A stretch of DNA of 64,000 bases from Paramacrobiotus metropolitanus (GCF_019649055.1 NW_026570314.1:248001-312000); one strand, 5' to 3'. Counted from the first letter of the stretch, positions 8,189-63,545 are shown. The notes: generated by a model from the letters alone, not told the origin. Numbers and translations: made by a program.

Positions 8189-10790
8189 TTAATGCTGATT
8201 AGAACCCAAAAGCTTTTCACGGAGAATGTCCAGGACCAGAAAGTTTCCGGCTTTGCGGATTACACTGACCGCGTCGTTATGGGTAGCCGCTAGTAAGCTC
8301 TCTCCGTTCACCCGAATAATGCGATCGCCGTGCTGCAAACGACCTGAAAAATTAAAGGCTCCCTTATAGACGTAATTTCGTGTGTGATGTTAATGAACTG
8401 CTCTGTCTGTTATTTCCTAGCAGTATGACCTTCATGTAATGTGTTTCCTTCTTCAGCTCTAGCAGTTTTTCCTACGATGTATAATTGTTGTCGGTAATTT
8501 TATTCTACAGTTTAGAATGATGAAGTGGTTATGTGTGGATGCTGCAAACGGAAACGTCTTACTGGTTAACATTGCACAGCAGCCGCTGTTACCATCTTGA
8601 TAGGCTTGTCCTCCGGCTGGGATTTTTTCCACAACGATGGGCTTAGCTTTACTGCCCGATTCGTATCCTCCAGACTAAAAACAGTTACGTCTTTATGACT
8701 AGACCTATTTATCGTGTAGATTGAGATGATTAAGCGCTTGACATCTAATGATTCTAATCAACCCGCAGTAGAAGTAGAGAATGGAGAAAAGATTTAAACG
8801 CATTGCCTTACTGACTTGCATCAAAAACAAAGTCTGGTTACTATCCGTTACTTATGCACCATCACTCTAAAAGGGACATAATTACTACGGCGCCCCCGAA
8901 ATATAATCAAACTAGTAGCATTTTCCGTATATTTAAGGATTTCCGAAATTATTTTTAAATTAAAAAATGATGCCGATAGGAGGACACCTACAATGGTGAA
9001 TCCTAGGCCCCGATCATCTCCACGTCGCAGCACGATCGTTACGAGCCCCAGCAGACTACAAAGGTCAAAGATCACATCTGACCGTAGTATTTCATCATTG
9101 CTGTACCACGGGCATCACAGCAACGAGAAGTCAAGAACCGCTGGACAAACTGTAATTTTACGCGCGCACCGCTGCTCGACCATTGCTGGACCTTGAATTA
9201 TTTCATCCGGCAAATGCAACATCATAATACGATTTAGACTTTCCCTTGGCTGCGCTGAAAACGGTATCTCTGGTGGTGTTGCAGCGTGTCTGTACCGGTA
9301 AATGTCCCACAATTCGGCTGGCAGCAATAGTCCACTCTAAAACCATAGTAACAAAGTAGTGTGAGTATGAACCGTATTGTCTGTATCGTAGCGCGCCCGG
9401 GAGTATCTAAAATTACTGAATGAGTTCGGGAAAATGAGAAGCGTAACAGGGAGAAAAGAGAAGACAGTTGTTAAGAAGGTAGAAAATAGGAAAGATAAGG
9501 AAATCATGAGAAATGAGAAAACATGCATCACATCTTGCGACTGAAACATGCTGCTGGGTTACCGCAGCGGGTCCGTCCAGCAGCTCTTGATCGCTCATAA
9601 GCGGAAATCGTACGAGGGAGAGTAGTTCCCCAAGTACTCGACGCCGGTTGGTAGCCGTCGGCTCCTCTTTGCTACGGACGCAGCAAGCTGTCGCCCACCT
9701 GCAAGACAGGCACCCGTAATCACAGGCTTCATGAAATCGATTCACGATTTGGATCATGATCAGTTCGCCGAATCAGAAGCAAAAGGCCTTAGAAACCGAC
9801 ATTATAATCTTAAGTAAACCTCTACATGGAGCCATTTAATACAGTTTCCAGGTTTGTCAATAATTAAAATAATTAATATCCAAGTAATAAACAGGGGCAC
9901 CAACTTTTCCACTGCCTTGTAAATGTCGTTTTCCATTGCCTGTAGTGTGCTGCGCTGCAAAATTAACTCCAGTGTATTCTTCTCGAGCTGGCTGAATTGT
10001 TTGGAAAGGAGAACACTTTCGGTGTGCGCGTCGATCACCATTAAGCATGGCTCCACGAAGGTGCCGGCATGCCAGTTAATCGTCTAAATTCCATTAGAAA
10101 ACAGGGAATAAACCTTACCGGTACTAGCCGAAAGGCACCGTGTGTTAATCCCGTTAAATGGGGATAACGTAAAAAGCGGGCGTAAAAAGCGTACCATATC
10201 GAGATACATTAGGCAGCTCTCCTCATCGAGGTCGCTTAACACATACTGGGAGCAGATATCGACCAGCAACGGTATATCGTATCTGTCGGCGCAGTACAGG
10301 GTTGGCACCACGCTCTCGTTGTTCAGGTCAACGCGGTCAGCGTACAAATAGCTGAAAGAAGTAGACATGTATACGGAATTCTTGCCCATGGATTCCTGTT
10401 ACTAGAAAGCGTAAACGCCGTTTACCTGAGCATATTAGCAAAGGCTGTGGGATGGACATCGGGAACCTCAATTGGACGATCACAAGACTCTGGCAGGCTG
10501 CCATAGAACATGGCCCGAAAAACCGGACTGCGTATGCTCAGAATATTCCTACAAACCGATAAAAATAGAACCTTTCGGGTCGTTTGCATCGGGCAGAAGA
10601 CTCGGTAAGCTTAACAGGCTTACTTGTGCGCTGAAAAGGTTTTAACGGGGCCGTAGTCGCGCCCGACGGCCAACTGCACATCACTCAAATCCCCGCTGAT
10701 TAACGCAGCCTTCAAGGATTGCCGGATGCCGGAAGTATCTGGTTCGCGCTCCACGTGTGTGGCATTCGATGTTCTTGACGTTCGCGACAT
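8189..10790 (-). CDS. BTB-BACK-PDZ protein, copy B (nine exons, 409 aa)
   Basis: Exons, high to low: 10624-10790, 10426-10548, 10195-10351, 9905-10083, 9563-9698, 9170-9336, 8992-9055, 8593-8674, 8189-8343. Lengths sum to 1230 nt in one open frame ending in TAA. BTB is residues ~25-115 (GDLSDVQLAVG, then RSPVFRAMFYGSLPE). BACK follows (ILQRSTLQAMEN, then NRRRVLGELLSLVRFPLMSD) as in BTBD1/2/3/6. The last three exons form a PDZ: VLRRGDDRGLGFTI, then GRLQHGDRIIRVNG, then an alpha-B start ATHNDAV with His at the class-setting position. Known families: BTB-BACK proteins recruit substrates to CUL3, and PDZ domains bind C-terminal peptides. The exon 4 donor is GTTGGT and the exon 6 donor GTGCGC, so those two are the least certain. 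The 5' flank resembles that of the copy at 11919-14721. Confidence 0.85.
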
Positions 10791-11439
10791 GTACGGATCG
10801 AAATTAGTCTATGACAACAATGGCGAAAAAATTGATTTTGTTTTGAAGAAAAATTAATAACATCAGCTCGCAGTAGGAAATTGCAGCTTACACTAACACT
10901 GTACATCGAGTATTATTAACGGCTCCGTCAGCGAAACAGACCAACAATTACAGGAACTCAACACGGAAGGTATTCAACAAGCAGCGAAGGCAGATTATTC
11001 AGCACGGTACATACTTCAAAGTTCAAATTGTCGGCTTACATACACAGTGATCCACTCATTTACTGTATGTTTATACATCTTTTTAGCCTATTTTAGAATA
11101 GAGACTGTTATGATTCAGTACGATCGATATGACTGCTGCGTGAACCAAACGGCCGACTCTACCGACGGAGGCGGAAAGCTGTACGGATAGAACGCAACGC
11201 GTAGCTATTTTGTTTTGCATATGTGTTTCTTTGCTTTATACCATCCTTCTCGACGCTTCCTCCGGCGCGGCGATGATCCGTTAACGTCAGGTAAGCAGAC
11301 AAACAATTACAAGATCATTAAGATCATCTGAGGCAGACGATGTAATCTCCTTAAGATATTTCGTGACCTCCAACCCAATCAGAGATATTATTATGTATAT
11401 TGTAATATCTTTATTTGAAGAATCGTGCTGCAGTTACAG
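10791..11439. other. 5' flank of BTB-PDZ copy B, paralogous to 14722-15300
   Basis: No gene seen. About 10900-11020 matches 14850-14950 (for example the stretch around CAACAATTACAGGAAC and CGGAAGG), so the upstream regions of the two BTB-PDZ copies were duplicated with the genes. The promoter presumably lies here on the minus strand. Confidence 0.5.
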
Positions 11440-11597: not shown

Positions 11598-11654
11598 TAT
11601 TATACTAGAGTAGTACAGTATTCCTGGTACGTTTCCGATATTCTGTCCTACAGA

Positions 11655-11915: not shown

Positions 11916-11918
11916 ATG

Positions 11919-14721
11919 TTAATGATTAGAAAAACACAAGGGATTGTCACGGAGAATGTCTAAAACCACGAAGTTTCCGGTGTTGCGTATCATATTGATC
12001 GCGTGGTCATAACTGACCACTTCCTCCCCGTTCACCCGGAAAATGCGATCGCCGTGCTGCAAGCGACCTGCAGAATGAAAAAGATGCCTTTGCTACAACC
12101 TACAAGCAAACTTAATCTACATTAATTTGTAGACGTTATAGTAGTCGTACCATAAGTACGTGTTTTAACTTTTAAGTACGTTTTTATGTTTTATGTACTA
12201 CTTAAGTGTTATAAATGTTTTAGGTGAGTACTATACAGTATTATACAGCAATATTATACAGTTTAGCAATATTATACAGTAGTATCAACCCACAATTTAG
12301 GACTATAAACTGTCATCGTCTGCCAACGGAGGAAATACTTTATTGGTTAACGTCACTATACAACCCATTCCATACCATCTTGGTAAGCGCTTCCTCCGGC
12401 TATAATCTTTTGCAAAAAAATGAGATGATCTTCAGCAAACGATCCGTAGCGTCCCGTCTAAAAAGCAGAGTAACAGTACAGTCTGTATATACTTTCATCA
12501 TGATGAGTTGTTCACAGTTTTGTTTTCACGGTTTGAAATTGAAATCAGCAACAGCATAAGTTCAGTTTCCCGCAGTGATACATTATTTTTGTTACTATAT
12601 GCCAGACATGCTGAAGACAGCTACAGTCATTGCAAAGCCACTGTATGCGAAAAGCTGCTAAAATTATTGAGAAAAATGGTTACGGGTATGTCTCGAATTT
12701 TGCAAGTTTTCGTTTTCGTGCGCTTCCATACGCTTTTTTTTCGTTCTATCTGGGTTTTATTATGCTCTTCTAAGGCCAAATAATCCTCCATAATTTCGGA
12801 AAATGCACTTCTCGTTACAGGTTCGTTTAATTAATCTTTGTGTTGTTTTACTCACCATTTTTAATATAAGATCGAACTAATAAAAGCCAGTTCAACTGAA
12901 AGTACTTAATTAATTTTAAGTTACATAATATGACATTCCTCCCATCGTACCAGATTCCCCGTTCCAGTGGTGAATCCTAGAGACCCGTCGCTTCCACGTC
13001 GCAGTACAACCGTTACAAGTACCGACAGACTGCAAAAGTTATACTGAATCGATTACGGAAACAGATCAACCCAAACTTCGTAAGACGTAATTTTCCACGC
13101 TCACCTCTGATCCGGCAAATGCGTCAGCCCAGTACGACTCGCACCTCGTCGGGGATGCGCAGAAAATGGAATTGCCGGTTGCGTTGTTGCGTATTTGCAC
13201 TGGTAAAGGTCCCATAATTCGGGTGGCAGTAGCAGCCCACTCTACGAGCACAGGCACGATATTAAAGTACCATAGGTACCTACTTAATACGGCAACGTGT
13301 TTTTAACCCCACCGCAGCGGGCCCATCCAGCAATTCCTTATCGCTCATTAACGGAAATCGCACGAGGAACAATAGTTCGTCTAACATTCTACGCCGGTTG
13401 GTGGCCGTTGGCTCCTCGTTGTTACGGCCGCAGGCAGCTGCCGCCCACCTGTACAAGGTAAAGAGTGCACACAGTCATACGTAAACTACCTCTTTCAAAT
13501 GTCTCTTTCATGTAGAAGTCACCAGGAGCCAGATTAAATTTACACCACTTTCCATTATCCCTTTTTATTCAGTGAGATTTAACCAGATACACTGCTTGAT
13601 ATAGTTCCCAATATTTCAATTTAACCGCCAGGTTTTTTAAAAGAAAGGTGCATCATCTAATTTTAAAGACGATCTACCTTTCGACTGCCATATAAATGTC
13701 GGTTTCCGATGCCTGTAGAGTGTCGCGCTGCAGAATTAGCTTCAGTGTTTCCTTGTCCAGCAGGCTGAATGGTTCCAGGAGCAGAACGGTTTCGGTATGC
13801 GCGTCTATTATCATTAAGCAGGGCTCCACGACGGACTCAACATGCAGTTTAACCGTCTAAACATCACGCGCCAGATGTTCGACAATGTTCGTGAAAAGCT
13901 GCCTTCTGTACTGTACTTAATGCATTTACCAAGTCCAAATACTTTAGACAGCTGCTTGCATCGAGGTCGCTGACGACAAAGTGAGAGCAGACGTCGACCA
14001 ACAACGGCAAATCGTATCTGTCGGCGCAATATAGCGTCGATAACACGTTCTCCTGATTGAGATCAACGCGATCAGAGTACAAATAGCTGAAATCATTGAC
14101 CATGTATAAGAAAGTGCAATTTAAAATAACGATTACTATACGAGGAACTATTCAACGTCACTTACCTGAGCATATTGGCAAAGGCTTCCGGATGAACATC
14201 AGGAACGTCAATGGGACGATCGCAATTCTCGGGCAAACTGCCATAGAACATGGCCCGAAAAACCGGACTGCACATGCTCAGAATAGTTCTAAAAAGCAGC
14301 GAAACGGTACCGACATAACCTACTTGGTACACCACAGATTCAACTTTGAATCGCATTTGCACTTTGCTGCTTTCTAAGCACCATTGCGTCAACTTTTACG
14401 CGACTGACATGTTGCATAAGGCTTAAACAGAAAAATTGGCTTTTTACCGTCATTTTCCAGCCAAACATTTATACAAAGAAACAGTTCTGTTTTGATTTTA
14501 CCCGTCTACAGTATGCAGTAGGCACCATTAACTCTTAAGAACCATAGTGCTTACTTGTGCGCTGGAAAGAGCTTGGCAGGCCCGTAATCATGCCCGACGG
14601 CCAACTGTACATCGCTTAAATCCCCGCTGGATAGCGCAGCGTGCAGGGTCTTACGAATGCCGGACGAAACCGCGTCCCGCTCTACAATCGTTGCACTCGA
14701 TGTTTTCCGTGTTCGCGACAT
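11919..14721 (-). CDS. BTB-BACK-PDZ protein, copy A (nine exons, 402 aa)
   Basis: Exons: 14555-14721, 14166-14288, 13930-14086, 13678-13856, 13313-13448, 13105-13241, 12951-13029, 12376-12457, 11919-12067; 1209 nt in frame, TAA stop. BTB: GDLSDVQLAVGHDYG, then CSPVFRAMFYGSLPE. BACK: ILQRDTLQASE, then NEEPTATNRR and LVRFPLMSDKELLDGPA. PDZ: VVLRRGSDGSLGFTT, GRLQHGDRIFRVNG, and alpha-B SYDHAIN with Tyr where class I PDZs have His. The ATG directly follows TGCCTGTAG, suggesting a 5' UTR intron. Oddity: the donor used after exon 7 in the paralogues reads GG here, and an in-frame GTACGA 15 bases downstream is the likely replacement, adding five residues in the PDZ beta2-beta3 region. Probable CUL3 adaptor. 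Confidence 0.83.
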
Positions 14722-16161: not shown

Positions 16162-17583
16162 ATGGCCAGTCAAGGTTCAACGTCGCTATCCACCAAAGCG
16201 CGTGTCAGTCGTTGGATTCGTAAGCGCTGGAGATCCCTGTCATCCCCCCGACAACAAAGTAATGACGTTATACGAGTAGACACTTCAGCCCCTGCCTGCG
16301 AGCCCATCACCAACAACAGCAACTGTCGACAAATCTTGGGAAAAATCTGCAGCCTGTTGTTTACGAATCCAGTACGGGTCGGTTCTCTCTGGGCTATTTG
16401 TGCGACGTGGACTGGCCGGGCGGTCGCGTCTTGGTGGATTTCGCCTGTCACAACCGCCCGCCCCAGTGGCTGCCCGTTGGCAAGGGACGCAAGCATGAAC
16501 CATTAGAAACTAGGGAGATTGACCGTCATACTCTGGTTAAAGCCGCGTTGCGTGGAAACCCCGACGAACCCTACGTTTTCCAACCGGGGCGAGTTCTTTT
16601 CCCCCCGGCAAAGGATTTCTGCGGCAATATCGGTCCAGCATGTGTGGAAGCGATGCGCCCGGGCGGCGCCGGCTCATTCGAAAATTTGTTCATCCAGACC
16701 CGGAATATCAGTACCACCACAAAACAGGCGAGTCGCTTTCCGTTGTCGGATACTGTCGTCTGCTACAGAAGCAAACGGCGCGTCTGGCTTCCAGGATTGA
16801 TTTACGGCTTTTGTTGAGAGAGTTTATCAAAATTCCTTGGATGAAAGTTGTGCGGATATGGCTGGACGCCAAAGGCATCCACTGTGTCTACACACAAAAC
16901 AAACTCGGCTCTTTTGATCAGGCGGATATGGAACATCTGGTCCGCATGTCCAAGTGGCGTCAGACAGCACGGATACACTGACACTAAAAACAATAAGATG
17001 GAGCGTTATGTGTCCCTGGGAATGCTGCCATACGAACTGCACATAATAGTGTTTTTATTACAGAGTGTGCAAGACTTGGTACGACATTTTATGCAGTCGC
17101 CGCCGAAATCGGCATGTTGCAGTGGACATGAAACGTTTATTTTCATATCACGCCAGCTACGAGGAGAGAACCATATCAGCTACGAGAGGAAAGAACCTAC
17201 AGCCTAACCGGTCTGAACGCCATCGACAACGGCGTGACGACGGCAACGGTATCGCTGACGCTGATGAACGGCCGGCTAGACCCGGAAATGGAGTTGTTTC
17301 TCTTCGGTTGCTGTTGCTTAAGCGCATTTGTCTGCGGGTAATCGTCTTAAAGAACGTTCAGTGCATGCGCGCAATGGAGCAGAACTACGGAAGGCAGCGG
17401 ATAGGACGGGATAAACTCTGTTACTTGATGGATGTGTGCCAAGTGCTGCGTTTGTGTGACGTGGCTATTCCGACCCCATTTCGCTCCATCGCCCGGCAAT
17501 GGAATTCGGCGGACAGATTGCCGAAGGAGGTCGATATCGCGGTGAATTATGCTGCGCTGAGCTGTACGCTCAGGGAGACTACT

Positions 17584-18045
17584 TGACGTGTGTAGATACT
17601 AGTAGTACATACATATCTATTTAACTGTGATTACTGTTGTACGCCTTCTCCTATCTGTACGTCACTGCGGTTGCTCATTATCGCTACCTGTGATTCGCCT
17701 GTTCTCATCTTGATAGCGATGTATCTTGTGCTCCTGATAGTCTATAAATTCTCCTGTCATCGCTAATATCGGAGTCAGTCTTGATCATTCTTGACTGGTA
17801 ACTTGCTTTTAACTTTCCTTGTGTTGTGCATATGATTGTGCGTTAGCGAAGTAAAGCATCTTCTGTGGTATCGACGTTCGTAATTAGCTTCAGATTATAA
17901 CGTGGTAACACGGTATGCTCGTGCTTCGTCCGACCCGCATGTGTATCGACCAGGAGTTAGAAGTTTATCTTAGCACAATTGCTTAGGGATTCCTGAAGGT
18001 TCGTGTTCCTGATTGGTTCCATCCGTTCTTACTGTAACAGTTGAT
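17584..18045. other. Left part of the insertion in the F-box exon
   Basis: About 460 bases with no ORF. The insertion as a whole begins TGACGTGTGTAG at 17584 and ends CTCTACACGACA at 21264. The host exon repeats TACT on both sides (17580-17583 and 21265-21268), so the boundaries look like TG...CA with a 4-bp duplication. Whether this is an LTR-type element later hit by the LINE, or the LINE's own flank, is unclear. Confidence 0.35.
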
Positions 18046-21014
18046 TTATTATTATTATTATTATTATTACGGCACAAGAGCAGACAACCCCGAAGGGACT
18101 TCAAGTCTGGTCGAACAAAACAATTTTCTGTTAACAAAACATTTAGGAGAGATTAACAGATCTGAGTAGAAATTTAAAAGAAGGTACAGAACTAGCTTCG
18201 AGAATTTTAGGATTAACAGCAATAATTTTATCAAGAAGACGCTTTAGTCGCATTTCCATAGTCGACCCTCCGATAACTTTCTTTGCCCGCGTAACATCGA
18301 TCCGCCGGCTTCCGCAAGTTGTAGTGCGGTGTTATCTTACTTGGATCATGTCCAGGAGGTAGGCCGGAAGTGAGAACTGATCTTTGTTCCAGAACTTGAA
18401 CAACCACACCGCATCGCTCTGACGCCATCGGTCGAATATATGAGAATACCCAACTTATGATAGTAACCGATCTTGTAATCAGTGATTGTTTTCAGAGCTT
18501 TACGTTGCAGTCCGTCCAGCTTGTCGCGCTCAGTCGAAGACGCTGCAGACCATACCGGCGACTGGTGTCCGATATGGCATCCAAAGCAAGCGTGGTAAAG
18601 ACCTTTGCGCTGTGACATGCTGAGCCCTTCTTGTGCCCGCTTAATCATGGCAATGCCGAAATTCCCCTTCCGCTGCACCTTTCTGAACTGCTCACTCCAC
18701 TTCAAGTGGTTATCGATCTCAACGCCGAGATACCGTACACGTTGTGCAATGCTGACAACCGACCCGTTGATGACGACTTCCGGATCCGGTTGTTTGTTTC
18801 GGTCAGAACATAAGTAAATGGCTTGGCATTTCTTTCCATTTACGTGCAAGAGATTTTCTTCCATAACCTGGCCGACACGCACCAGTCCAGCATTCAGTTT
18901 AGCGGCCGCACATTTTTCGTTTTTCCAGTTGCATGGACAATTGTGTCGTCTGCAAAACAATCAACCTCACAATCTTCTGCGTTAACAGTAAGTACATCAT
19001 TAATGTAGATGGTGAACAGGATTGGTCCGAGCACTGTGTTCTGCGGGACGCCAGATGTTAATGGCAGCCAGTCGGATGTTCGTTTCCATCTCGTACTCTT
19101 TGCACTCTGCCGGTAAGGTAACTATGTAGCCATTGCACTACGATATCCCCGGCTCCGATTTTCTTCATCTTGTCCAGTAGTCGCGAATGGCTTACACTGT
19201 CAAATGCTTTCTTGAGGTCTAAAACACACTGCTGTCACATTCTTGCTATCCAATGCCTTTTTCCATTTCTCCGTTGTTTTTAACAATAGCGTTTCACAAG
19301 AATGACCGTCTCTGAATCCAGACTGATTTGGGGATAAGATCTGTTGTTCTTTCAAAAAACGCACTAACTGCATTGGACGCATTTCAAACACCTTCGAGAA
19401 ATTACAAAGTAGCGAAATGGGGCGGAAATCATCAACACACAGCGGGGAAACACTTTTGGCAAGGGGTAAACTTCGGCTTTTTTGAAGACGGACGGAAACA
19501 CTCCTCCTTCAGCGACTGGTTCACCATTTGCGTAAGGACTGGAGCGATGAGCGGCGTGATTTTCTGTAACAGTTTCGGTGGCATCCCGTTTGGTCCGGGG
19601 CTTTTTTTCTTCGCGGCCATTCGATGAAGTATCCCAGCCACCACTGCTGTATCAACATGCGCAAACCTGGAAAACAAAGCGTTACTATCGTCCCCCAGTG
19701 GCGGTCGCTCTGGGGGATCGTGCGGAGCCCCATGTTGGCCCATTGTCACGAAATGCTGATTAATCGCATTTAAATTAACTGCAACCGCACTAGGTTTCGC
19801 CTCTTTTTTCATTGTTCTGCCGATTTCTTTCCACACTACGTCACTCCTGCGCTGATTTTCTTTGAAAAACGCCTCTTTAGCATTTAAAATAGCCGTGGTC
19901 ACTTCTAGCTTCACTCGCTTATACTCTCGGGCTTGCTGATCGTACATCGGTGTCCCACGTGATCTGCATTTCTCTCCGTACAGTTGGTCTTTAATCTTTA
20001 GCATAGCTTTTAAATCATCGTTCATCCACGGTGGAGATGCACGCTTCACACGGCGGGAGCGTGTAGGAAAACATTTGTCAACCACAGCTGAGAGGTCTTG
20101 CACGAAATTCTCCACAACTTCATTCACGTCACGTTGTTCATCATACTGTTCGTAGCGCTTCACTGTTTCACCAATTTCATCCAAAAAACTTGTTATCGTC
20201 CGTATGGCTCCACAATCGAAATTGAATTGTTTTGTGAACTGAATTTTAGTTTTGTACTGTGCAACAGTACGACACAGGCGGTGATCCGAAAACTGACATC
20301 GGTAGCAGGCATACTGGCATACAGGGAAGGCGGGGAGCACAACATAGTATCGATTTTGGTGCAGCTGATAGAATTCATGTTATCCTTCTTCATTTTCCTG
20401 TTGGCCACACGAGTATAACCTATCACCTTTTCGTCGAGATTAAAATTTGTTTGCAGATCATGGTAATAGCGGTGGTACGGAGTACTACTGATGGAAGTAT
20501 CGATATTCAAGTCTCCCGTAAGCACGTAATCACAATCAGGGAACCGAGACAGGGTATTATCGATATGCGCAAACAAATATTTTGTATCTGAAGCGTTGGA
20601 ATCCGGAGCACGGTAAATCAAACCCCCCAATACTTTTCGCTTACCGATTTGTAATAAAATCCACAAACTTTCACAATGAGCATACGTTTCTTTGCAATCA
20701 ACGAGTTTACTGGTGATATGACTGGGCACATACAGCAGGAGACCTCCGCCGCGAACTTTACAGTGGTCTTTACTGCGATCTTTACGAAACAGCTTATATC
20801 CAGGGACTTCGTATAATTGATCAGGATCCGAAGATGAAAGATGAGATTCCGAAATACAGAAAATTTTAGAAATGTTATCTTCAGAGAGAAGAATGCTTTC
20901 AACCAAATTATGCTTGGTCGAATTGCGATTATTAATGCCCTGTATATTTAGATGGTAATAAGCCACTGAAGACAAGCTGCAGCGTTTTTTGGTCCCCATA
21001 TCGATCATATACAA
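18046..21014 (-). mobile_element. Degenerate LINE with APE endonuclease and RT (TAA-repeat tail)
   Basis: Read on the minus strand. An endonuclease of the APE/EEP type lies at 21014-20193 (ISESHLSSSDPD, YRAPDS, LTGDLNIDT). The connecting region and RT follow at 20340-18346 in shifted frames: KKKSPGPNGMPPKLLQK, QSGFRDGHSCET, the catalytic FADDTIVHA near 18950 in another frame, then RYLGVEIDNHLKW. At least three frameshifts make it inactive. The 3' end is (TAA)n, seen on the plus strand as ATT repeats at 18046-18069. TAA-type tails and this RT style fit the I/Jockey/CR1 side of LINEs; I cannot assign the clade firmly. It sits in exon 2 of an F-box pseudogene. Confidence 0.85.
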
Positions 21015-21120
21015 CCAATCCGTACAAACTTACAGTTGCAAGACTCAGAAAAAATTACTGAACATTCTACTACAGAAAAAAGTTGCTTCTGCTACATTTT
21101 GAAAGGAAAAAGTTAAAGAA

Positions 21121-22929: not shown

Positions 22930-25241
22930 TCAGGCCGCTTTCCATTCCTCGACGTGCTTACCGGCAATCTTCAACTCCCTGAATGCCACACTACTCTCTC
23001 GACCGGCAACCTCAACGGTATGGCGACCCGCTCGCTGTACGCCGTACGTCGCCTCTTGGTAGCCTCCGTCAATGTACGCGTACACGACCAGTCCACGTTT
23101 AAGAATATCCCCGGCATGAACGACTTGGGCTGGCTGGACAAAGTCACCCTTGTCTGTCGGCTCCTCCAGTTTATACTTGGCATAATCATCCACTTCATTG
23201 TCTCCAGTGACGATCGCGGGATACCAATAACCGTTCGCAAATAAAACGAACAACCTCTCCCGATTTCTGCACAAGGGCTCGCGCTTCGACCCCAGACGAA
23301 ACGCTACGTACTTCCGCGGTTTCGTGGAGAATTTCAGCTGGTCTTCACTGGTTCCATGTTTGCAGAGATACAGTTCACGTACTTCGTTGGCAGTCAGTAG
23401 ACCGCTCTACAAAAACCCAGCGAAGGGGTTAGCGATTTTTTTCAGGACCGTGATGAAGTGGTTTTGACAGAGTAGATCCCAACCTTAACAGGTCCGTTGG
23501 CCAGCTCTTCGTCATTCATCAGCGGGAAGCGTACATGGTACAATGCACCGCCCAGCAGGCGGCGACGATTAGCCGGCGTGGGAGCCAGCTTCTTGCGAGC
23601 ACAGGCTGTCGCGGCCCATCTGTAACAGTGCCATGTGTGTAACGAACGGTATAATCTTTTATTATGTCCGCTCGGGAGAACAGCAAACAATCAACTAAAT
23701 TGACATAACGTAGCAGCGCTGGTACTTCCATTACCAGTTGCTACGGTATTCACAATTTACGAGAATACACATCGTTTGCACTTGTACATACGTACTTGCA
23801 CTATACACGTACGTGTACTTGCACTATACACTACAAACAGACTACAGAAACAAAGCAACACTGACTGCTTGGCTGAGCGCTTGGCCAATGCACAGCAATA
23901 AATGCAACGGAATATTAAAAATATTGCATAAAAATTTTTTTAATGTTTAAATTTGATCATTATTTTTTATTAGTGTAAATCCGCGCAGGCATCTTGTTAT
24001 GTACACTGGTGTAAGGGCGGGACGCTCCGTCCTCTTGAGTAGCTATTCGCTGTTTCTGGGGATTTCCACCCCGGACATTTCTGCGCTGTTTTGACGGATC
24101 TGCAGCACAATTGCACTGGCTGCAGAATCCTTCCTTGCTAGTCTGGTGTTGCTGCGCCACGGTGCGCATTAGATTCGGCATTAAAGCTTCATCCGAGTTC
24201 ACCGCTGTTCGCTGTCGAGGATACGCGTGGCGCCCATACGGCCCCGCGTTATACTGGCTGTTGTCGAAATAAAAGATATCGGTACAAATATTGCATTCTC
24301 CTCTACGAATACCGCCTGAAATTTCGCAATACCTACTTGCCATGAAGCTGTTCGCTTTAAAAAGGCAATAAGAAACAGGAACAACAACCTACGTACTTTT
24401 CAACGGCAGTATACACGATATTCTCCTCTGCCGACAAAGTGTCTCTTTCTAGAATCATCTCTAGAGTTTTACGCTCCAATGCCGTGACGTACTCCGACTG
24501 GAGAACGACTTTGCTGGATACATCCAGCACATCGCAACACTTCTCCATCACAACATCAAAATCCGGAGTCCAGCGTTGCGCCTACCACGACGTATACAGT
24601 CATCTACCCTGCATATCGGGTTCAGTTTTCTTAGCAAAACACCAACATTTCCCAGGTACATCAGGCAGTTCTCCGGCTTCAAGTCCTGGAGAACGAAATC
24701 CATACAGAGCTCAGCCAGCCACGGCAAGTCGTACTTGTCCGAGCAGTAGAGCGTCTGCAGCACATTATCCTCTTTCAGATTCTCCACCGTCCCAGTGTAC
24801 ACATAGCTACAAATACGAAACAAAAGCAACTGAACTGAACAGACATCACTGGTAGATTACGCATAGGACGGTACCTGAGCATATTCTTGAAAGCGTCTGG
24901 GGGAATGTCCGGGACGTCGATGACAGCGTCGTTACGCTCGGCTAAGCTCCCGTAGAACATCGCATGGAACACCTCGCTGCTGACGCCCAAAGTCAATCTA
25001 GGGAAAAGAGGAACTTTTATTACTCACGAAAAACTGGAATGCATTTCGTCCGTTGGGAAAGGAGCGCTGTTAAACCGTGCCTGTGCGCTCGGATCTTCTG
25101 CACTCCGCCACACTGACGTCCAACGGCGAATTCCACATCCGTCAGTTCACTATTGGCCAGAACATTCTTCCAACGATTCGTAATCTCGGAAATTGCGCCT
25201 CGGCGTTCAAACCTCACGCATGATGCGGAAGGCTGCGTCAT
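22930..25241 (-). CDS. BTB-BACK protein with Tudor-like C-terminus, copy C (six exons, 413 aa)
   Basis: Exons: 25081-25241, 24875-24997, 24647-24806, 24397-24581, 23484-23619, 22930-23406 (1242 nt, one frame, TGA stop). BTB: NSELTDVEFAVGRQCGG, then SSEVFHAMFYGSLAE and DAFKNMLR. BACK: ILERDTLSAEEN, then ANRRRLLGGALYHVRFPLMND. The first five exons match the BTB-PDZ family in position and phase. The last is a single 477-nt exon: SGLLTANEVRELYLC, then two beta-rich units (LFVLFANGYWYPAIVTG and RGLVVYAYIDGGYQEATYG) that look like tandem Tudor/SH3-like folds. It has no PDZ. Exon 1 seems to use a GC donor (ACAG then GCACGG). Probable CUL3 adaptor with a different ligand reader; the Tudor call is by pattern only. 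Confidence 0.8.
23960..24340. repeat. Paralogous intron-4 block (pair with 53660-53940)
   Basis: Shares long near-identical stretches with 53660-53940 (for example GGGGATTTCCA.CCC, GTTTTGACGGATCT, GCTGCGCCACGGTGCGCA, GGCATTAAAGC). Both blocks lie in the same intron of paralogous genes, between the BACK exon and exon 5. Here the minus strand is open for 127 codons with two Cys pairs (CNIC and CSQCNC); the other copy is frameshifted. It may be ancestral intron sequence or a lost exon. Confidence 0.6.
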
Positions 25242-28413: not shown

Positions 28414-28918
28414 TGCGTACGCGGAGCGTGACTGCTAATGGTTTTTTGTGCACAGCTCAAAACGGCGCCAAAAAGATAGACGGCTGGAATATGCAAGGTA
28501 TAATACAAAGCGAATATATACAAACGTACTGTAAGTGTAAAGCACAATAAACCGGTAAACTGTGGTGCCGTACCGGCAAATTCAATAAGGTTTTCCGAAA
28601 AACGATCCGACTGGGATATGCGTGCAGAAAAACGTTAGCTAAGGTGTACAGCCTACGTAGCTAACTGCGCCAATTGTATCGAAATTACACGATTGATTAT
28701 GCCAGAATACATTTAATCAATTATAAGCTTAAACTGCAGTGCTGGCACGACTGACAGTTGGTTACGGTCTTACAGACGTAATCGCAGTACTTGCATCGCG
28801 AAACGACGAACCGGTAAAAGTCGAAATGACTAGGTCTGAGACTTCTTGCGGGTGGTGTGGGAAGTGGCGATGTTGTGGAAATCGCGAGTTCAGACTGCAG
28901 GCGTCCAGGTGGCCTGGT

Positions 28919-34065: not shown

Positions 34066-34070
34066 CTCAG

Positions 34071-41060: not shown

Positions 41061-41064
41061 AAGC

Positions 41065-46680: not shown

Positions 46681-51002
<4,322 letters not shown>

Positions 51003-52078: not shown

Positions 52079-55000
52079 TTATGAACAGTCAACACACCGT
52101 TTGTGATTGCCACGAATGATTTCCAAGGTCACAATGTTTCCGGCGTTGTGCAACATACTGGCGGCTTCTTCGAAGGTGGCCGCTAGTACCCTCTCTCCGT
52201 TTACGCGGACAATCTGATCACCGTGCTTCAGTCGCCCTGCAGAATACAAGGTCACCTGAAAATAGCACGTGTGACACCGCCCTGCATGTATTTAGGAGAC
52301 TAGGACAGCTAGTGTTTCTGCTGGGCCGTGCAACTGTCCAAGTGTGACTACCGGAAAGGCTTTATTGCCCCAAACTGCACTATTGCTTCCTACCATCCCG
52401 CTCAGCGCTTGCTCCGGCTAACATCCTTTGCACAAACACTTCCAGATCTCCATCCTGATTTGGCCCTGCGCGGCCACCACCCTACAAAGAAGCACAGTAA
52501 TTATATCTTCCAGACCGGAAAATCAACTTTTCTTACATTTGCCGGGTGCATGAAAGAACTGTTCTCGTGCATGTGCTGAAAGTCAGTGCAGATATTTTAC
52601 CGCGGAAAGTGTTATTTTTTAAATTTGCCTTGAAAATTTTGGTTAACTTTGGTAAACCGACTGAACTAAACAATTTATTCTTCCTAAACCTAATTCTGGG
52701 CTTGAATCTTTGTTTTCTCGCTCTCTTTACTGGATGAAGTTAATGCTCGTAAAGTTGTTAGTGCGAGATCTAACAGTTCGTGCTTCATTGCATGCAGACA
52801 TTTTCAAATATAAACGGAAATATTTGTGCGCCAATAGTGTTGCCAGTGCCAACCTGACACGCACCATATAAAACCCCAAATGACCGTTTTCTCCACGCCG
52901 CAATACGATCGTAATAGGTTCCGACAGACTGCAACAAACAAATCAATGACCAAACTCTTTGCAGTAACAACGTGGAATGGATTGCGGGAAGGCCGAAAAT
53001 ATATGAATATGAGTACGGTCAGATTTAACCGCTCAGTGCTCACCGACGCTCCGGCACCTCTTCGCCTGAAATCCCTAACAGCATCCTAACCAGCCAAACG
53101 CCTGGCCCGATGATCTTCCTAATCCAATACCACGGCAGCCAGACCGTCGACTTCGCCACCACCTCGACACTTCCCGGTTGCGGAACAGATCCCGGGTTTA
53201 ATCGTGGCTCCCATGAAAACGGTATTTCCGGCTTCGCTGTTGCGTGCTTGTACCGATAAATGTCCCACAATTCGGCTTGCGATAATAAATTGCTCTGCAA
53301 ATAATAATGACGCCTGGAAGATGTCGAGAGTTCTGTGCCGTTTGCCTGACCTCAGCCGGCCCATCAAGCAGCTCCTGGTCGCTCATCAGCGGGAATCGGA
53401 CGAGGAACAGCAGTTCGCCCAGCGTCCGCCGCCGGTTGGCAGGTGTTGGCTCCTCGTTGTTTCGGGCGCAAGCAGCTGCTGCCCACCTGAGAAACAAATG
53501 AACGAAACATACAATCCTATTAGACTACATAGAATCGTCCTCCTGCGTCAGGGTTTTGGCAAGCCTTTAAATTTTCGCTTTGCACTGATTATTATTAGAA
53601 GCACTGTAATACTTCGGTTTTTCTTAGCAACTGGTCACTTAAACTTTACATTTCAAATAACAATTGTTCAGACTGTGAAGGCCGATAGCTCCGCCTTCAC
53701 GATTGGCCATTCGCCGCTGTCTTTTGCTGTTCTGGGGATTTCCATCCCACACATTGCTGCTGTGTTTTGACGGATCTACAGCACAGCTGCGCTGGCTGTA
53801 GGATCCGATCTCATTAGTCTGGTGTTTGCTGCGCCACGGTGCGCACATTAGATTTCGGCATTAAAGCCTCAATCCGGGTTCGCCGCTGTTTCGCCGTCGA
53901 AGGTACGTGGGCGCCCATAAGGCCCCACGTTACAAGACAGCTCGAAGTACCCAACTACAGGAGCCCCAGTGGAGGTACTGAACATTTCTCAAGTTTTTTT
54001 TTTGCTTGATTTCATAAAAATTGTATTTGTTTGTTGGATTCACCCAACGCACGAACCCAGCAGACAACATGCAACTTTAAAGTCGGCACTCGAGAGTCCC
54101 GACTAAATTAGTGTAAATTCGAGCACACGTAAATAAACAATCGAAAGCACACAACAACAATCTAAAAGAATCCCCGAAGACAGGTATCCTTAACTACAGT
54201 GGACTTCATAAATGTGGTTACACATAGTCACCCGTATGCATAGCGCTATCGGCTTTAAGTGTAACCACATTTATGAAGTCCATTGTATACGACCTACCAG
54301 TACGGCCTCGTTTATTAAATGAAGTATTCCATAATTCTTACTTCTCGACGGCTGTGTAGATAATGTTCTCCGATGCCTGCAGTGTACTGCGCTGCAGAAT
54401 TGACTCCATTGTTTTGCTGTCCAGACAGCTAAATGGTTCCGATCCCAGAACAGTTTCAGCGTGCGCGTCTATCAGTTTTAAGCAAGGTTCCATAAAGGCG
54501 TCAGCATGCCATTTAAGTGCCTAAATGTATCAGAAATTTTTCGACATGTAATTAAACAAACGTAATAGTGCTCGCGCAAACTATGTAGTTTGTTTAAAAT
54601 CTACACGCTGTAATTAATTAGGGAAGTGGCCCGGTACATAGTGCCATCTTTTTCAGATTTGCGGAAAAAAGCACATAAGTAAGTATAAGGATCATTCTGA
54701 GAGGGAACCAGTCAGTATTCTGGCATTTTTTCCCAGTTTTAAAATAAATTTTAAAATTTTTGAAATTCATTTTAAAATTTGAAAAACATCATGGAAACAT
54801 GGTTCCGTGTCAAAACGATCCTTATACTGAGTTATACTAATGCGCTTTTTTCCGCAAATCTGAAAGAAATCGTCTCATAATGAGACTTCAGGTACACCTT
54901 CTTGCATTTCAGTTTTTCGGAATCTTATTTCGCCCATAACCTTCCAACCGGATGTTGTGCACACAAACGATATCCACACCAACATATACAAATCATGTGG

Positions 55001-55696
55001 CTACAGAATGCAAGAAAACGATGCAAAAAAAGGGTTAGGGTGAGCGCAGAAGTGGAAGTTTTCGTGTATGCACCCAAAATTTGGCACCATGTACCGGGCC
55101 ACTTCCCTTAAGACAGGCGGAGAAAAGCTTACCATGTCGAGATACGTTAAGCAGTTCCGTGTATCAAGGTCCTTGAAGACAAACTGGGAGCACAAGTCTA
55201 CCATCAACGGCACATCGTATCGATCGGCGCAGTACTGCGTTGGAAAGACATTCTCGTGATTCAAATCAACGCGGTCAATGTAGAAATAGCTAGAAAACCA
55301 GCTTCAAAACACCCCATTCTTTAAGAAACTGCAAACTGACATTTACCTGAGCATATTGGCGAATGCTTCTGGATGAACATCAGGAACATCAATTGGACGA
55401 TCACAAGATTCGGGCAAACTGCCATAGAACATGGCCCGAAAAACCGGACTGCGCATGCTCAAAATATTTCTACAAACCCGTGAACCCAGAACCGACTTGA
55501 AAATTTGCATCAGGTAGACCTGGACTTTGGTAGAGACTTACTTGTGCGTTGGAAAGATCTTGACGGGTCCGTAATCACGGCCCACGGCGAGTTGCACATC
55601 GCTTAAATCCCCGTTGGCCAGTGCACTGTTTAGTATACTGTTGATGCCAGGAGAGGTTGCTCCCCGTTGAATTTGTGGACTACAGCATCCCGCCAT
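52079..55696 (-). CDS. BTB-BACK-PDZ protein, copy E (nine exons, 436 aa)
   Basis: Exons: 55542-55696, 55347-55469, 55133-55289, 54342-54520, 53351-53486, 53044-53294, 52865-52928, 52394-52481, 52079-52236; 1311 nt, TAA stop, all junctions canonical and in the family phases. BTB: NGDLSDVQLAVGRDYG, SPVFRAMFYGSLPE, HPEAFANMLR. BACK: ILQRSTLQASENIIYTAVEK, ANRRRTLGELLFLVRFPLMSD. Linker: LWDIYRYKHATAKPEIPF. PDZ: TIVLRRGENGHLGFYM, RMLAGASAERDGRLKHGDQI, alpha-B start ATFEEAA with Phe at the class-setting site, suggesting a ligand class other than S/T-x-hydrophobic. The tail ends HKRCVDCS. Intron 3 holds a 487-bp MITE, intron 4 the block shared with copy C and an 89-bp MITE. Likely CUL3 adaptor with a C-terminal-peptide reader. 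Confidence 0.87.
53660..53940. repeat. Paralogous intron-4 block (pair with 23960-24340)
   Basis: Counterpart of the block in copy C, same intron and orientation, but with indels that destroy the open frame present there. Confidence 0.6.
54197..54285. mobile_element. Complete 89-bp MITE, TA target
   Basis: CAGTGGACTTCATAAATG...CATTTATGAAGTCCATTG with TA on each side; ~27-bp terminal inverted repeats around a short core (CACCCGTATGCATAGCGCTATCGG). Lies in intron 4 of BTB-PDZ copy E. It is the unbroken form of the element at 41990-42540. Confidence 0.88.
54621..55107. mobile_element. 487-bp MITE with TTA duplication in intron 3 of copy E
   Basis: Ends GGGAAGTGGCCCGGTACAT...GTGCCA and inverse, flanked by TTA at 54618-54620 and 55108-55110. 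A second inner inverted pair, TTTCAGATTTGCGGAAAAAAGC (54652-54673) and its complement (54845-54866), brackets an AT-rich core. It has no transposase. The right end lies 23 bases from the exon 3 donor. Confidence 0.85.
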
Positions 55697-56634: not shown

Positions 56635-59250
56635 TCACTCATTGTGATGGGCGGTGGGGCTGCGAACAGCCAGGAACGAGAGTCGCATAACGTCTATTGC
56701 CATGTTATTCCCGGCGTTCCCGAACACACTGACAGCCTCGTCATGCGTGGCCCCTTGCAGACTCACTCCGTTCAGTCGAATAATCTGATCTCCCGGCAGC
56801 AGTCGTCCTGCAGAAATTAAACGGTCTCGGCTCCAAAAGCGTAACTTCGATATATAGAAGTAAATTGTTTCCGTCGCATCACATTATGCCGAAAAGACAA
56901 ACATATTATTGCTCCTAACCTAACTGAGTATTTTTTTGTTACCATCTTTGTGGGCGCTTCCTCCGATTAAGATTCTCTTCACATAGATGGGCACGCCACA
57001 ATCACGGCCGCCAGCCTAAGCACAGCAGTTCGTTTTAAGCACTAAAAGCAAAACTCTGAGATACTTCGCAACAACAACCCAATAATACGTAAACAACCCA
57101 GTAACCTGGAAGCGCACAATACTTATTCCTAAAGGAATGCCTTCTCCGCGCCGCAGAACGATCGTCCCAAAAATCGGAAAACTGCAAAAATTACACGAAA
57201 CTTGTGCAAATTCGGGTCTGAAAGATATTTCCGTTTGTCTACTTAACTTATCTCGCCTACTGCCTGTTCTAATAATCTCAGTGCAAGCGCAATATGGCCA
57301 TGGAAGTTGGTCGCGCTCTTCCTAGTCTAGCCTTAGTTTTGTTATTTTCTCATTTTGGTGCGCGACAATTTAAATAAAGTCAGCCAGGTTTTTCCTGATT
57401 TTAGTAAACGCGGTCATAGCTTTTTTGGTGAACTTATGGTTTGTATCCTTTGCAGTAATCTCTAGACTGCACAACAAGAGTCTTCCTCGAAGCGCCGAAT
57501 AAGAAGTTCGAGTTGGGCTGGTATCGCTTTAATAACACGGGAACATCGACTGAGTACAGCATAATTTTCAACGCACCAATTTGCAGGCACCACTTGAACG
57601 GGATACCCTAGCAGCTTCCCGGCCAACCACAAGAATGACTGGATGAACTTCCTTATCCACCACGAAGACCGCGAGAATGACTCTGTCGTCGGCGCTATCC
57701 CGTCCGGTAACGGTGGCAGCGGAACAAATCCTGGGCTTAATCTTGGTTGAGCAAAAAAGGGTGTTTCCGGCTTCGCTTTGGCGTGTTTGAGCCGAAAAAT
57801 GTCCCACCATTCGGATTGCAGTAATAAATTACTCTACACGAACAACAACACTTGCCTCGGCCATTTCGAGAGGCACATTCGGCTGCCGTACCTCAGCGGG
57901 TCCATCCAATAGCTCCTGATCACTCATCAGCGGGAACCGCACTAAGTACAGCAGGTCGCCCAGTACTCGTCGCCGGTTGGCAGCAGTGGGCTCCTCGTTA
58001 ATACGGGCGCAGGCGGCTGCAGCCCACCTACAAAACAAGTGCACTGCAGTCATTGCACAAAACAGATCGGTTAATAACTTAATCCAATCCGAGCACAACA
58101 TTCGGACGACGAATGTTCCAAATAGATTTCAAACGCTTCTAAACGAAAACTTTTGGTGTTGATCAAATCTCTGTGGTAACATTACCTTAATGCTTACCAG
58201 TTTACGTAAAATGAACCGGTTATTGCTGTTAATGCCGGTTGGATTTTCAGTTTTTACGAAAGATACAGACAAACCGAAGCAAGTTCAAATTTCAACTAGG
58301 AGAGCCATTAATTTAACAAAATGAGAGGGTCTTTTAGGACGTCTTCAGTGCGCGACGACCAATGTGACAAAGTTTTATGTCTTCTGTCTTACATATGGGA
58401 TACCGGGATATATCTTATATATCACTCACTTTTCGACTGCCATGTAGATCGCGTTTTCCGCTGCCTGCAGTGTGCTGCGCTGCAAAATTAGCTCTAGCGA
58501 TTTCCTATCCAGTTTGCTGAATCGTTTGGAGCGAAGAATGCCTTCAGTATGCATATCCACTAATTTCAAACACGACTCAACGATGTCTTCGGCATTCCAC
58601 TTAACCGCCTGCAGGAAACCGAAGAGTTATTTGCAGTTTCGTAGCACAGGGAGCACTGAGGATACGTACCTTGTCCAGATACATTAAGCAGTTGCCTGCT
58701 TCAAGTTGACTTAAGATGAACCGCGAGCAATGGTCGACCAGTAACGGCACATCGTACCTGTCCGCACAGAATCGGGTGGGGAAGACAGTGTTGCGACTGA
58801 GCTCGACGTCGTTGGTGTAAAAATAGCTAAAAGTAACAACGCGTATAAATTCCGGTGCATGTCTTCTTCAAACTCTTGTTTATGAAAGTCCAGATACCTG
58901 AGCATGTTGGCGAAGGCATCAGGATGAACATCGGGAACAGGAATGGGGTGGTCGCAGTTTTCGGGTAGGCTTCCGTAGAACATAGTGCGGAACACCGGAC
59001 TGCGCATGCTCAAGATGTTTCTAGACAGATCAGTAAAACCAGGAACGGAAGCCCACAGCATATGTATATCAGCGAGAACGTACTTGTGTGTTGAAAAGAC
59101 TTTTACGGGGCCATATGCACGCCCCACGGCAAATTTTACATCGCTCAGGTCACCGCTGCTTAACGCAGTGTTCAGGAAACTGGGGATGCCGGAAGTGGCA
59201 AGTTCTCGGTCCGGGTTGTTGGCACCCGATGCTGTCGCAGTTGGTGGCAT
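56635..59250 (-). CDS. BTB-BACK-PDZ protein, copy F (nine exons, 442 aa)
   Basis: Exons: 59084-59250, 58898-59020, 58670-58826, 58430-58608, 57892-58027, 57577-57833, 57118-57181, 56943-57015, 56635-56807; 1329 nt in one frame, TGA stop. BTB ~25-115: SGDLSDVKFAVGRAYG, MRSPVFRTMFYGSLPE. BACK ~130-275: ILQRSTLQAAENAIYMAVEK, ANRRRVLGDLLYLVRFPLM. Linker with WWDIFRLKHAKAKPETPF. PDZ ~343-430: TIVLRRGEGIPLGISI, GGSAHKDGRLLPGDQIIRLN, alpha-B ATHDEAV with His, the class I signature. The ATG at 59250 is chosen by alignment; an in-frame ATG at 59331 would add 27 residues, and TTTCAG between them suggests a 5' UTR intron. Probably recruits proteins ending in S/T-x-hydrophobic to CUL3; the pairing is inferred. 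Confidence 0.87.
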
Positions 59251-60545: not shown

Positions 60546-61690
60546 TTATCCGTAGAGAGATTGTGCGCATTCAGAACACGGGTAGTGACTTCCACGAACA
60601 ATATCTAAGGTCACACTGTTTCCGCCGTACTGCAGCATGGTAACGGCCTCATTGTAGGTGGCCGCTAGTACACTCTCTCCGTTTACGCGGACAATCTGAT
60701 CACCATGCTTCAGTCGACCTGTAGAAAATAGGATGTTGACTTGAAATGGCACTGCAGAGTGCAGACCCATCTGTACGTATTGAGGATAGTTGGTATTTCC
60801 GTCTGGCCGCGCCATGCCTACGGCTCCCGGAAACGCTTTCTCGCCCAAGATTGGAGAACCACTTCTTACCGTCTCCCTCGGCGCTTTCTCCGGGTGCAAT
60901 CCTTTGCACAAAAATTTCCAGATCCCCTTCTCGCGTTGCGCGGCCACCGACCTATGGGTACGCAATGTTATTAAAATATTAATGATCTTTGAAGCTGAAT
61001 CATATTAACAGAGACTTCGTAAAACCTGTATTATCTTGCTAAGCTGGTAATACGTAACTCCGGTCTTTATTGGTCAAATCAAACTGAAGGCAAAATAAAG
61101 AAGGAAACACAAAAATTACAAGTGTTTCGATGTGATACTTTACAGGATTAAGTCGCTGCTCGTAAATTAGTACAAAGATCGAGATGTGTGTCCTTCAGTG
61201 CATGCAGATATTTATTCTGTAAAATTATATTAATGGGACTACATGTACACCAATAGTGATGTCAGTGTCAACCTGACACACACCATAGAAAATCCTAGTT
61301 GACCGTTTTCTCGCCGGAGTACGATCGTAATAACTTCCGGCAGACTGCAACAAAAAAAACGAATGAGCAACGGTGAAATGATTATGACAACGCCGAGTTC
61401 TTTGTACAAGTAGCTGTGGTTGAGAATTCAACCACTCACCGATACTCCGGCACCGCTTTCAACGAAATCCCTAACAGAAGCTTAGCCAGCCACAGCATTG
61501 GGCTGGGGATCTTCTCGATCCAATACGACGGCAGCCAGACCGTTGACTTCAACCGCGCATCTAAACCGCCCGGTGGCGGAACAAACCCCGGGTTCAATCT
61601 TGGTTCCGCTGAAAATGGTATTTCGGGCTTCGTTGTCGCGTGCTTGTACCGATAAATGTCCCACAATTCGGCTTGCAGTAATAAATTGCT
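60546..61690 (-). pseudogene. BTB-PDZ family exons 6-9 only (linker and PDZ cassette)
   Basis: Exons 61440-61690, 61284-61344, 60870-60951, 60546-60718 are all open, with good splice sites and family phases: LLLQAELWDIYRYKHATTKP, TIVLRRENGQLGFSM, GRLKHGDQIVRVNGESVL, alpha-B ATYNEAV (Tyr), tail CAQSLYG. Exons 1-5 (BTB and BACK) are absent: only ~430 bases separate it from exon 9 of the next copy and they show no homology. Either it is a 5'-truncated relic, or an alternative C-terminal cassette spliced to exon 5 at 63010-63131, whose phase is compatible. The clean frame argues for recent loss or continued use. Confidence 0.7.
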
Positions 61691-62120
61691 CTGCAAATGA
61701 TAATAACCCCTGAAAGATGTACAGACTACAGGAGTTAAGATCGTTTCATACAGTTTCGCAAAGGGAGTCGTTTTTTGTTACAGTATATTTTTTCTGTTAT
61801 TAAGTACACAGAACTATGAAATGGAAAACAGACAAGATCATATTATTCAAGAGTGTAATTAAGCTAAACACGATATCAGGACGAAAAACTATTTTTCACG
61901 CGGAAGGAAAGGATAAAGTAATGCACGATGCGCTACCGAATGTAAAAATGTACGAGTACCCCACTATTCTTGCCATTCACCGGGTAAATCATTTTTCGTA
62001 AGACATTATAGTACGCACACTGCATTAAGCTATTACAAAACTAAATTGCAATCGCTAGCTGATCACACGTCCACGAAGCCGAGTTTAGACAGTGCAATGC
62101 ACAGTGTGTACAGGCAGTAT
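61691..62120. other. Spacer between two PDZ cassettes
   Basis: No exon 1-5 homology and no other signal seen. Confidence 0.5.
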
Positions 62121-63545
62121 TCAGCGAATCACATCCAGGGTTACGTTGTTTCCGGCGTTGCGCAGAATGCTCCTGGCCTGCTCTCGAGTGACCGCTTCTA
62201 GACTCTCACCGTTCACCGCCACAATCCGATCGCCTGGCTGCAATCGACCTGTAGAAAAGCTGATGTCTAACGCAAACCATGCAGTGTATCGTCTTGTCAA
62301 TATTACGTCGGATGGTTTACCACGAATCAGAACGCGTTTCTCTGCCAGGAGTACGTGCACAAAATCGTAATATTACGTTTACCATCAATCCGAGCGCTTC
62401 CGCCGTCTACGATCACTTCCACCGAAATCGGCAAATTCCCATTCGGCGAACCTAAGCCTCCAACCTATATATAAACATTTCTTCTTTCAAGATCCAGCTT
62501 CAATTCTTACTACATACAAGAGTAAGCCCAAAACGACCGTCTTGTCCACGACGCAACGAAATCATATTAGATTTCGGCAAGCTGCCATAATATACAGGCG
62601 AACTGTAAACGCAATAAACAGCGTAATAAAGCAATAGCGACAAGGTTGATGAAAAGGCAACAGGACAGCAGAAATATTGCCCGCGCACGCACCGACGCGC
62701 TGGCAATTGTTGCACCAACCGCGAGCGCTTTGGTAATTTGTTGGCCAACATGATGAATGGCCTGATGATCTTCTTTAAGCGAAATCGGAACTCCGTCTCC
62801 GGCTCGAAATCTCTATCCGGAGAATGCGGCGGCAAATCGCTTCTTGGCTGCGATAAAAACGGAATTTCCGGCCGCATAGTGGCATGTTTGTACCGGTAAA
62901 TGTCCAACAATTCCGCCTCCAGTAGCAGCCCACTCTACGAGAGCAAGGATTATGTTCTCGGTTTCCGATACCTTAGTACTTCTGCTAATTACAGCTTCAA
63001 TTTGCCCACCGTGGCGGGTCCATCTAGCAGCTCGGTATCGCTCATTAACGGAAATCGTACGAGGAGCAGCAGATCGGCCAGGATGCGCCGTCGGTTCTTC
63101 GTCATTACGGGCACAGGCCGCTGTTGCCCACCTGCAAAATCACGGAAAGAAATTATGACCCAGTCGTCGTACTGGCTATAGTGGGAATCATACATTTCAC
63201 AAGTCGTCAAAAGGTACGAAAAGGTCCGTTTCATAAATCATAATAATTTCTGCTTGGTTTTTGTTAACATAGATGCGTATACCCGAAATCGCAGTACAAT
63301 TGCACGAGTGTAGCAACTAGCAACACGACCCCGGTTCGGAAAGTGAAAATGCTCAGCAGCACTTACTTTTCTACTGCAGTGTAGACTGCGTTTTCCGATG
63401 CCCGAAGTGTGCTGCGTCGCAGAATCATCTCCAACGTTCCCCTGTCGATCTGGTTAAGCCCCTTGAAGCGCAGAACATTTTCACAATATGCGTCCACCAC
63501 TCTCAAGCAAGGATCCACGAGATCATTTGCATGCCATTTAACAGC
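62121..63545 (-). pseudogene. BTB-BACK-PDZ copy G, exons 4-9, frameshifted in exon 5
   Basis: Exons: 63367-63545 (BACK: ILRRSTLRASENAVYTAVEK), 63010-63131, 62693-62934, 62518-62602, 62383-62464, 62121-62248. PDZ: ISLRRGQDGRFGLTL, GRLQPGDRIVAVNG, alpha-B VTREQAR (Arg at the class site). Exon 5 is 122 nt against 136 in every other copy. The lost 14 nt lie between two copies of AACCGACGGCG, one of which remains, so the frame shifts between NDEEPTA and NRRRILADLLLL. Unless an unusual splice corrects it, the protein is truncated in BACK. BTB exons 1-3 are not seen up to base 64000 and may lie beyond the window. Confidence 0.78.

Follow-up and report, generated by a model that had tools for sequence, protein, structure and literature searches.

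The 64,000-nucleotide stretch of the Paramacrobiotus metropolitanus genome analyzed here (NW_026570314.1:248001-312000; hereafter the window) carries four complete minus-strand genes, c1 to c4, in which a BTB-BACK core of the BTBD1/2/3/6 type is followed by a C-terminal PDZ domain. Real multi-exon BTB-BACK-PDZ genes are thereby confirmed, and the gene structure indicates that they almost certainly represent a genuine single-transcript fusion. With two incomplete copies in addition to the four intact genes, the tandem family described in a sequence-only reading of this DNA is borne out, and a fifth intact gene, c7, lies beyond the window (locus L002, C94:353500-360000).

To model the genes, the c1 region was translated in three frames and the other copies were built by spliced protein-to-DNA alignment with c1 as the guide for c2-c4, so that their common exon layout and phases are partly steered; splice sites, open frames, Pfam scores and selection values are independent of that guide. 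Each of the four genes comprises nine exons with an ATG start and a stop codon, and is interrupted exclusively by GT-AG introns in phases 2,2,0,2,0,2,0,1. Of the open frames of 409, 402, 436 and 442 residues proposed earlier with identical phases, the first three lengths and the phases are reproduced, whereas c4 comes to 413 residues here; 442 requires a different exon 6 donor, and either model may be right.

A Pfam-A scan of the four spliced proteins, with c3 and c4 entered as provisional models minus some terminal or linker residues, places BTB (E-values 1.3e-26 to 1.4e-21), BACK (2e-10 to 2e-11) and PDZ (3.1e-10 to 8.6e-16) above the curated cut-offs in every protein, as the sequence-only reading had anticipated, and detects neither PHR (PF08005) nor RING in any of them. 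The PDZ matches reach 40.7-58.5 bits (cut-off 23.2) over profile positions 2-78 or 2-80 of 81, in agreement with the assignment of the last three exons to this domain. The closest Protein Data Bank (PDB) match of the BTB domain is BTBD6 (2vkp, E 2.1e-20), consistent with the proposed BTBD1/2/3/6 parentage, and those of the PDZ domain in a sequence search are the DLG4 PDZ domains, which are generic PDZ relatives and do not identify a donor. The φ-x-E motif, through which BTB domains contact CUL3 (PMC10564622), reads LPE in c1, c2, c3, c4 and c7, its position having been assigned by eye against KEAP1 and BTBD6 and not on a structure. The region expected to hold the 3-box, at the start of BACK, is covered by the Pfam matches in c1-c4. 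The x-Φ-G-Φ carboxylate loop is GLGF in c1, SLGF in c2, HLGF in c3, PLGI in c4 and HFGF in c7, and the aligned αB1 residues are H, Y, F, H and R, respectively. The residue at αB1 sets the ligand class of a PDZ domain, with histidine specifying class I. The earlier description of the domain as canonical consequently fits its fold and carboxylate loop but not a single shared specificity, because αB1 varies between copies.

The BACK-PDZ junction and selection on both halves

PDZ exon 7 is separated from the exon that ends BACK by an intron of 114, 75, 115 and 482 nt in c1, c2, c3 and c4, respectively. The reading frame leading into exon 7 contains no ATG in c1-c4 and c7, and the junction has phase 2 in all five intact copies. 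In addition, the two halves are similarly diverged, with a mean dS (synonymous divergence) of 1.18 for BTB-BACK and 0.94 for PDZ, and c1 and c2 form the closest pair in each. Together, these features make a separate PDZ gene very unlikely. Furthermore, the seven best exon-5 matches genome-wide (of at least 150 scored) all fall in loci that also have PDZ exon 9.

To compare constraint, we estimated the ratio of nonsynonymous to synonymous divergence (dN/dS) by the pairwise Nei-Gojobori method, with no tree model, over the ten pairs of five intact genes and with 2000 bootstraps. The ratio is 0.17 for BTB-BACK (bootstrap range 0.11-0.22) and 0.45 for PDZ (0.28-0.62); the latter stays below 1 in every one of the 2000 bootstraps and exceeds the BTB-BACK value in 99.9% of them. 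Both halves are under purifying selection, with the PDZ changing faster.

Origin of the PDZ clade within an expanded family

CAHS homologues at many loci, with best identities of 68-72% to a Hypsibius CAHS-type query, mark the 170-Mb genome as that of a tardigrade. Genome-wide counts derive from single-protein and Pfam searches of this genome and refer to the matches listed. A search with exon 5 returned 150 scored matches of 404 candidates, which puts the number of exon-5 copies in the BTBD1/2/3/6-type BTB-BACK family at about 150 or more, pseudogenes possibly included. First-look candidates number 1040 for BTB and 618 for BACK, with separate BTB exon clusters on contigs C70, C132, C59, C8 and C216, and point to a very large expansion of BTB proteins in this tardigrade. 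PHR matches occur on only four contigs (C183, C21, C66 and C234), and L006 on C183 encodes BTB, BACK and PHR exons in order, as in an orthodox BTB-BACK-PHR gene.

Among 28 sister loci (8 fully read and 20 sampled), none has a PDZ domain after BACK. Instead, 24 of the 28 carry there, whole or in part and usually within the same exon, a conserved domain of about 120 residues, which is missing from the stretches read at L024, L029, L031 and L035, two of which end directly after BACK. Pfam does not recognize this domain, yielding only sub-threshold Agenet and DUF4537 matches. An AlphaFold2 run on the single-exon domain with 17 sequences gave an almost all-β fold (mean pLDDT 85.3, pTM 0.78), whose top PDB matches in Foldseek are the tandem Tudor domains of 53BP1 (best E 4.5e-5, TM-scores mostly 0.62-0.74); on the strength of the model and these matches, the predicted tandem-Tudor-like fold is well supported. 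Such ends occur in the window gene at 22930-25238, at L003, L008, L009, L011 and L012 and at most of L018-L037, and one literature search naming both parts found no description of a BTB-BACK-tandem-Tudor combination.

The five intact PDZ genes group together as a single clade, with support of 98/99 for BTB-BACK (14 rows) and 95/100 for exons 5-6 (34 short rows), and with the long-branched L006 as outgroup this clade falls among the other genes, most of them Tudor-type, for which the branching order is poorly resolved. Sister introns have the phases 2,2,0,2,0, identical to the first five of the PDZ genes. Because the PDZ genes group as one clade, the domain was probably gained once. Among the matches listed, family-type PDZ exons all lie on C94 except for one on C319, an apparent duplicate of C94:570k, and in the simplest account the C-terminus was exchanged once, after which the gene duplicated locally on C94. 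PHR had been given as the normal C-terminus of BTBD1/2/3/6; in the closest relatives in this genome that end is mostly tandem-Tudor-like, and on this comparison the PDZ appears to have replaced a tandem-Tudor-like domain, or an already lost C-terminus, and not PHR directly.

The linkers of the PDZ genes show no relic of a Tudor domain. The best other PDZ exons listed for the genome, C4:464851 (read as the PDZ of a syntrophin-like gene) and C4:1337377 (afadin-like by its neighboring frames), were set aside as donor candidates, with only 41-46% identity over exon 9 and mismatched introns. A PDZ-like exon at C94:363752-363871 was likewise rejected as a second fusion, as it lies downstream of Tudor-type L003 and looks decayed; L003 (C94:363000-371000) is a Tudor-type BTB-BACK gene, and this lone exon 9, about 3 kb downstream, is probably the relic of a lost PDZ gene. 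L004 (C94:569500-575500) and L005 (C319:35000-41500) are near-identical members of the PDZ family in which the 5′ exons have degenerated; exon 4 seems disrupted in the former but is open in the latter, and the two may be alleles or a recent segmental duplicate.

Predicted CUL3 adaptor role and its alternatives

In BTB-BACK-Kelch and MATH-BTB proteins the BTB domain holds CUL3 and the other domain holds the substrate (PMC1257465), and in BTB-BACK-PHR proteins PHR is expected to take the substrate-binding part (Stogios et al. 2005, PMC1257465). By the same logic, the BTB domain of the fusion proteins would dimerize and dock CUL3 via the φ-x-E motif, BACK would hold the module at the C-terminus in position, and the PDZ, standing where other proteins have PHR, Kelch or the sisters' tandem Tudor, would capture substrates for ubiquitination, most likely via their free C-terminal tails. 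From the sequence features, we consider it likely that the BTB-BACK-PDZ proteins are CUL3 adaptors, and a true fusion combined with that role is a probable reading as a whole; granted the adaptor role, we lean toward the PDZ being the substrate module that binds C-termini. Tail preferences probably vary from copy to copy, since αB1 differs among the five intact genes. More tentatively, and at somewhat less than even chances, these genes could constitute a new class of CUL3 ligase that reads free C-termini via PDZ, having arisen once in the tardigrade lineage by a Tudor-like to PDZ exchange and diverged into a small C-degron-reading repertoire within a family whose adaptor-like genes number well over a hundred.

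An adaptor whose PDZ serves to localize the protein or tether it to membranes, junctions or scaffolds, its substrates being members of the bound complex, is an unlikely alternative: many PDZ domains are localization modules and the nearest solved relatives are scaffold PDZs of DLG4/PSD-95, yet here the PDZ occupies the site of the proposed substrate module in known BTB-BACK proteins (PMC1257465), and its specificity position varies among copies, a variation that a shared tether would not require. It is less likely still that the proteins are BTB scaffolds devoid of ligase function, for instance dimeric PDZ bridges. Some BTB proteins indeed do not bind CUL3, and binding is only predicted here; however, BTB-BACK is strongly constrained and φ-x-E is retained in all five intact copies, a retention that is not automatic because one sampled sister, L007, has lost the motif (SPV at that position).

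Two further readings question the genes themselves rather than their role. It is improbable that the clade arose as a by-product of the BTB-BACK radiation and is now decaying, consisting of chance-transcribed genes or pseudogenes whose PDZ function is not selected: at least four copies (c5, c6, L004 and L005) are decayed or partial and the PDZ dN/dS is 0.45, but five copies are intact at a dS of about 1, with the PDZ ratio below 1 throughout the bootstraps. That hand assembly wrongly merged two adjacent genes is hardly credible, although the fusion was read from DNA; we rejected this reading on the 75-482 nt introns (only 75-115 nt in three copies), the lack of an ATG for a standalone PDZ gene and the identical phase in the five intact copies.

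Several observations nonetheless weigh against the proposal of C-terminus-reading CUL3 adaptors. That BTB-BACK and PDZ exons share a transcript is a deduction from how the genes are built, and the short, variable BACK-PDZ linker is where the exon boundaries of the models are least certain. CUL3 binding and the PDZ ligands of c1-c4 and c7 are likewise predictions from sequence, and the arginine at αB1 in c7 makes for an unusual groove. Finally, the PDZ dN/dS, about 2.7 times the BTB-BACK value, fits diversification but also relaxed constraint, and the decay of several copies (c5, c6, L004/L005) marks the clade as small and turning over.

If the proposal holds, CUL3 adaptors would have acquired in the PDZ a novel means of reading substrates, a pairing not found in the literature searched, and because PDZ specificity is well understood, candidate substrates could be deduced from the C-terminal sequences of proteins, an opportunity that orphan ligase adaptors rarely give. 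More broadly, one tardigrade carries over 100 duplicates of a BTB-BACK chassis, with the C-terminal module swapped among PHR, tandem Tudor and PDZ, which offers a natural experiment on how new targets come under the control of ubiquitin ligases.

Window features and comparison with known systems

Table 1. BTB-BACK genes and gene parts in the window, with exons given in transcription order
Feature	Position	Strand	Description and basis	Exons
c1	8189..10790	-	BTB-BACK-PDZ, 409 aa; spliced model and Pfam BTB/BACK/PDZ	10790-10624, 10548-10426, 10351-10195, 10083-9905, 9698-9563, 9336-9170, 9055-8992, 8674-8593, 8343-8189
c1 PDZ	8189..9055	-	entered in phase 2; the two internal introns are in phases 0 and 1	exons 7-9
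c2	11919..14721	-	BTB-BACK-PDZ, 402 aa; spliced model and Pfam	14721-14555, 14288-14166, 14086-13930, 13856-13678, 13448-13313, 13241-13105, 13029-12951, 12457-12376, 12067-11919
c2 PDZ	11919..13029	-	75-nt intron to BACK-end exon	exons 7-9
Sister gene	22930..25238	-	BTB-BACK gene without PDZ; exon 6 continues into tandem-Tudor-like domain	exon 6: 23406-22930
c3	52079..55696	-	BTB-BACK-PDZ, 436 aa; spliced model and Pfam	55696-55542, 55469-55347, 55289-55133, 54520-54342, 53486-53351, 53294-53044, 52928-52865, 52481-52394, 52236-52079
c3 PDZ	52079..52928	-		exons 7-9
c4	56635..59250	-	BTB-BACK-PDZ, about 413 aa, exon 6 donor uncertain; spliced model and Pfam	59250-59084, 59020-58898, 58826-58670, 58608-58430, 58027-57892, 57833-57664, 57181-57118, 57015-56943, 56807-56635
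c4 PDZ	56635..57181	-		exons 7-9
c5	60594..61690	-	partial PDZ-family copy	exons 6-9 only
c6	62124..64000	-	PDZ-family copy continuing past the window end into L001; 5′ exons degenerate	exons 4-9 recognizable in window

Interspersed with these opposite-strand genes is a repeated plus-strand family (4014-6264, 16266-17586, 29285-29833 and 34826-36731), one copy of which gives a weak F-box-like match below the cut-off (E 0.007). Apparent remains of non-LTR (long terminal repeat) retrotransposons lie at 2199-3056, 18346-21029 and 30108-31601, the last with a reverse-transcriptase match (E 5.4e-7) and the other two judged by reading only. An open frame of 258 residues at 38464-39240 (+) contains several helix-turn-helix units (HTH_23, E 2.6e-17) and is perhaps transposon-derived or bacterial in origin, and a 601-residue frame at 26629-28434 (-), rich in S, R and Y, has no Pfam match in the part scanned.

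The earlier claim that no BTB-BACK-PDZ family has been described holds against narrow phrase searches of 5.39 million open papers, which found neither this architecture nor any other BTB-PDZ protein, though there may be examples that are unpublished or known only as annotations; PDZ is not mentioned in the main text of a 2005 survey of BTB architectures (PMC1257465). The BTB-BACK-PHR proteins BTBD1, BTBD2, BTBD3 and BTBD6 share homologous BTB and BACK domains, BTBD6 being the nearest by its BTB, and across the BTB-BACK core the phases are largely common (2,2,0,0,2,0 in L006 vs 2,2,0,2,0). They differ in having PHR where the PDZ stands, and in numbering four to seven proteins per surveyed metazoan genome (PMC1257465), in contrast to a local multi-copy PDZ clade in one genome. 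The tandem-Tudor sisters have the same core and the same five introns, but their exon 6 usually continues into the Tudor-like domain, whereas in the PDZ genes a phase-2 donor closes exon 6 and three further exons encode the PDZ.

LNX/PDZRN ligases are RING-type E3s that require no cullin. Their PDZ domains likewise recruit partners, in several cases via C-terminal PDZ-binding motifs, and they show that ubiquitination can be PDZ-guided by another route (PMC7765395); being RING-type and without BTB or BACK, they offer a functional parallel and not family membership. CUL3 adaptors of the BTB-BACK-Kelch (KLHL) and MATH-BTB (SPOP-like) types combine a CUL3-docking BTB with a separate substrate module, carry a Kelch propeller or MATH domain in place of PDZ and, in the case of the MATH-BTB group, have likewise expanded in one lineage, C. 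elegans (PMC1257465).

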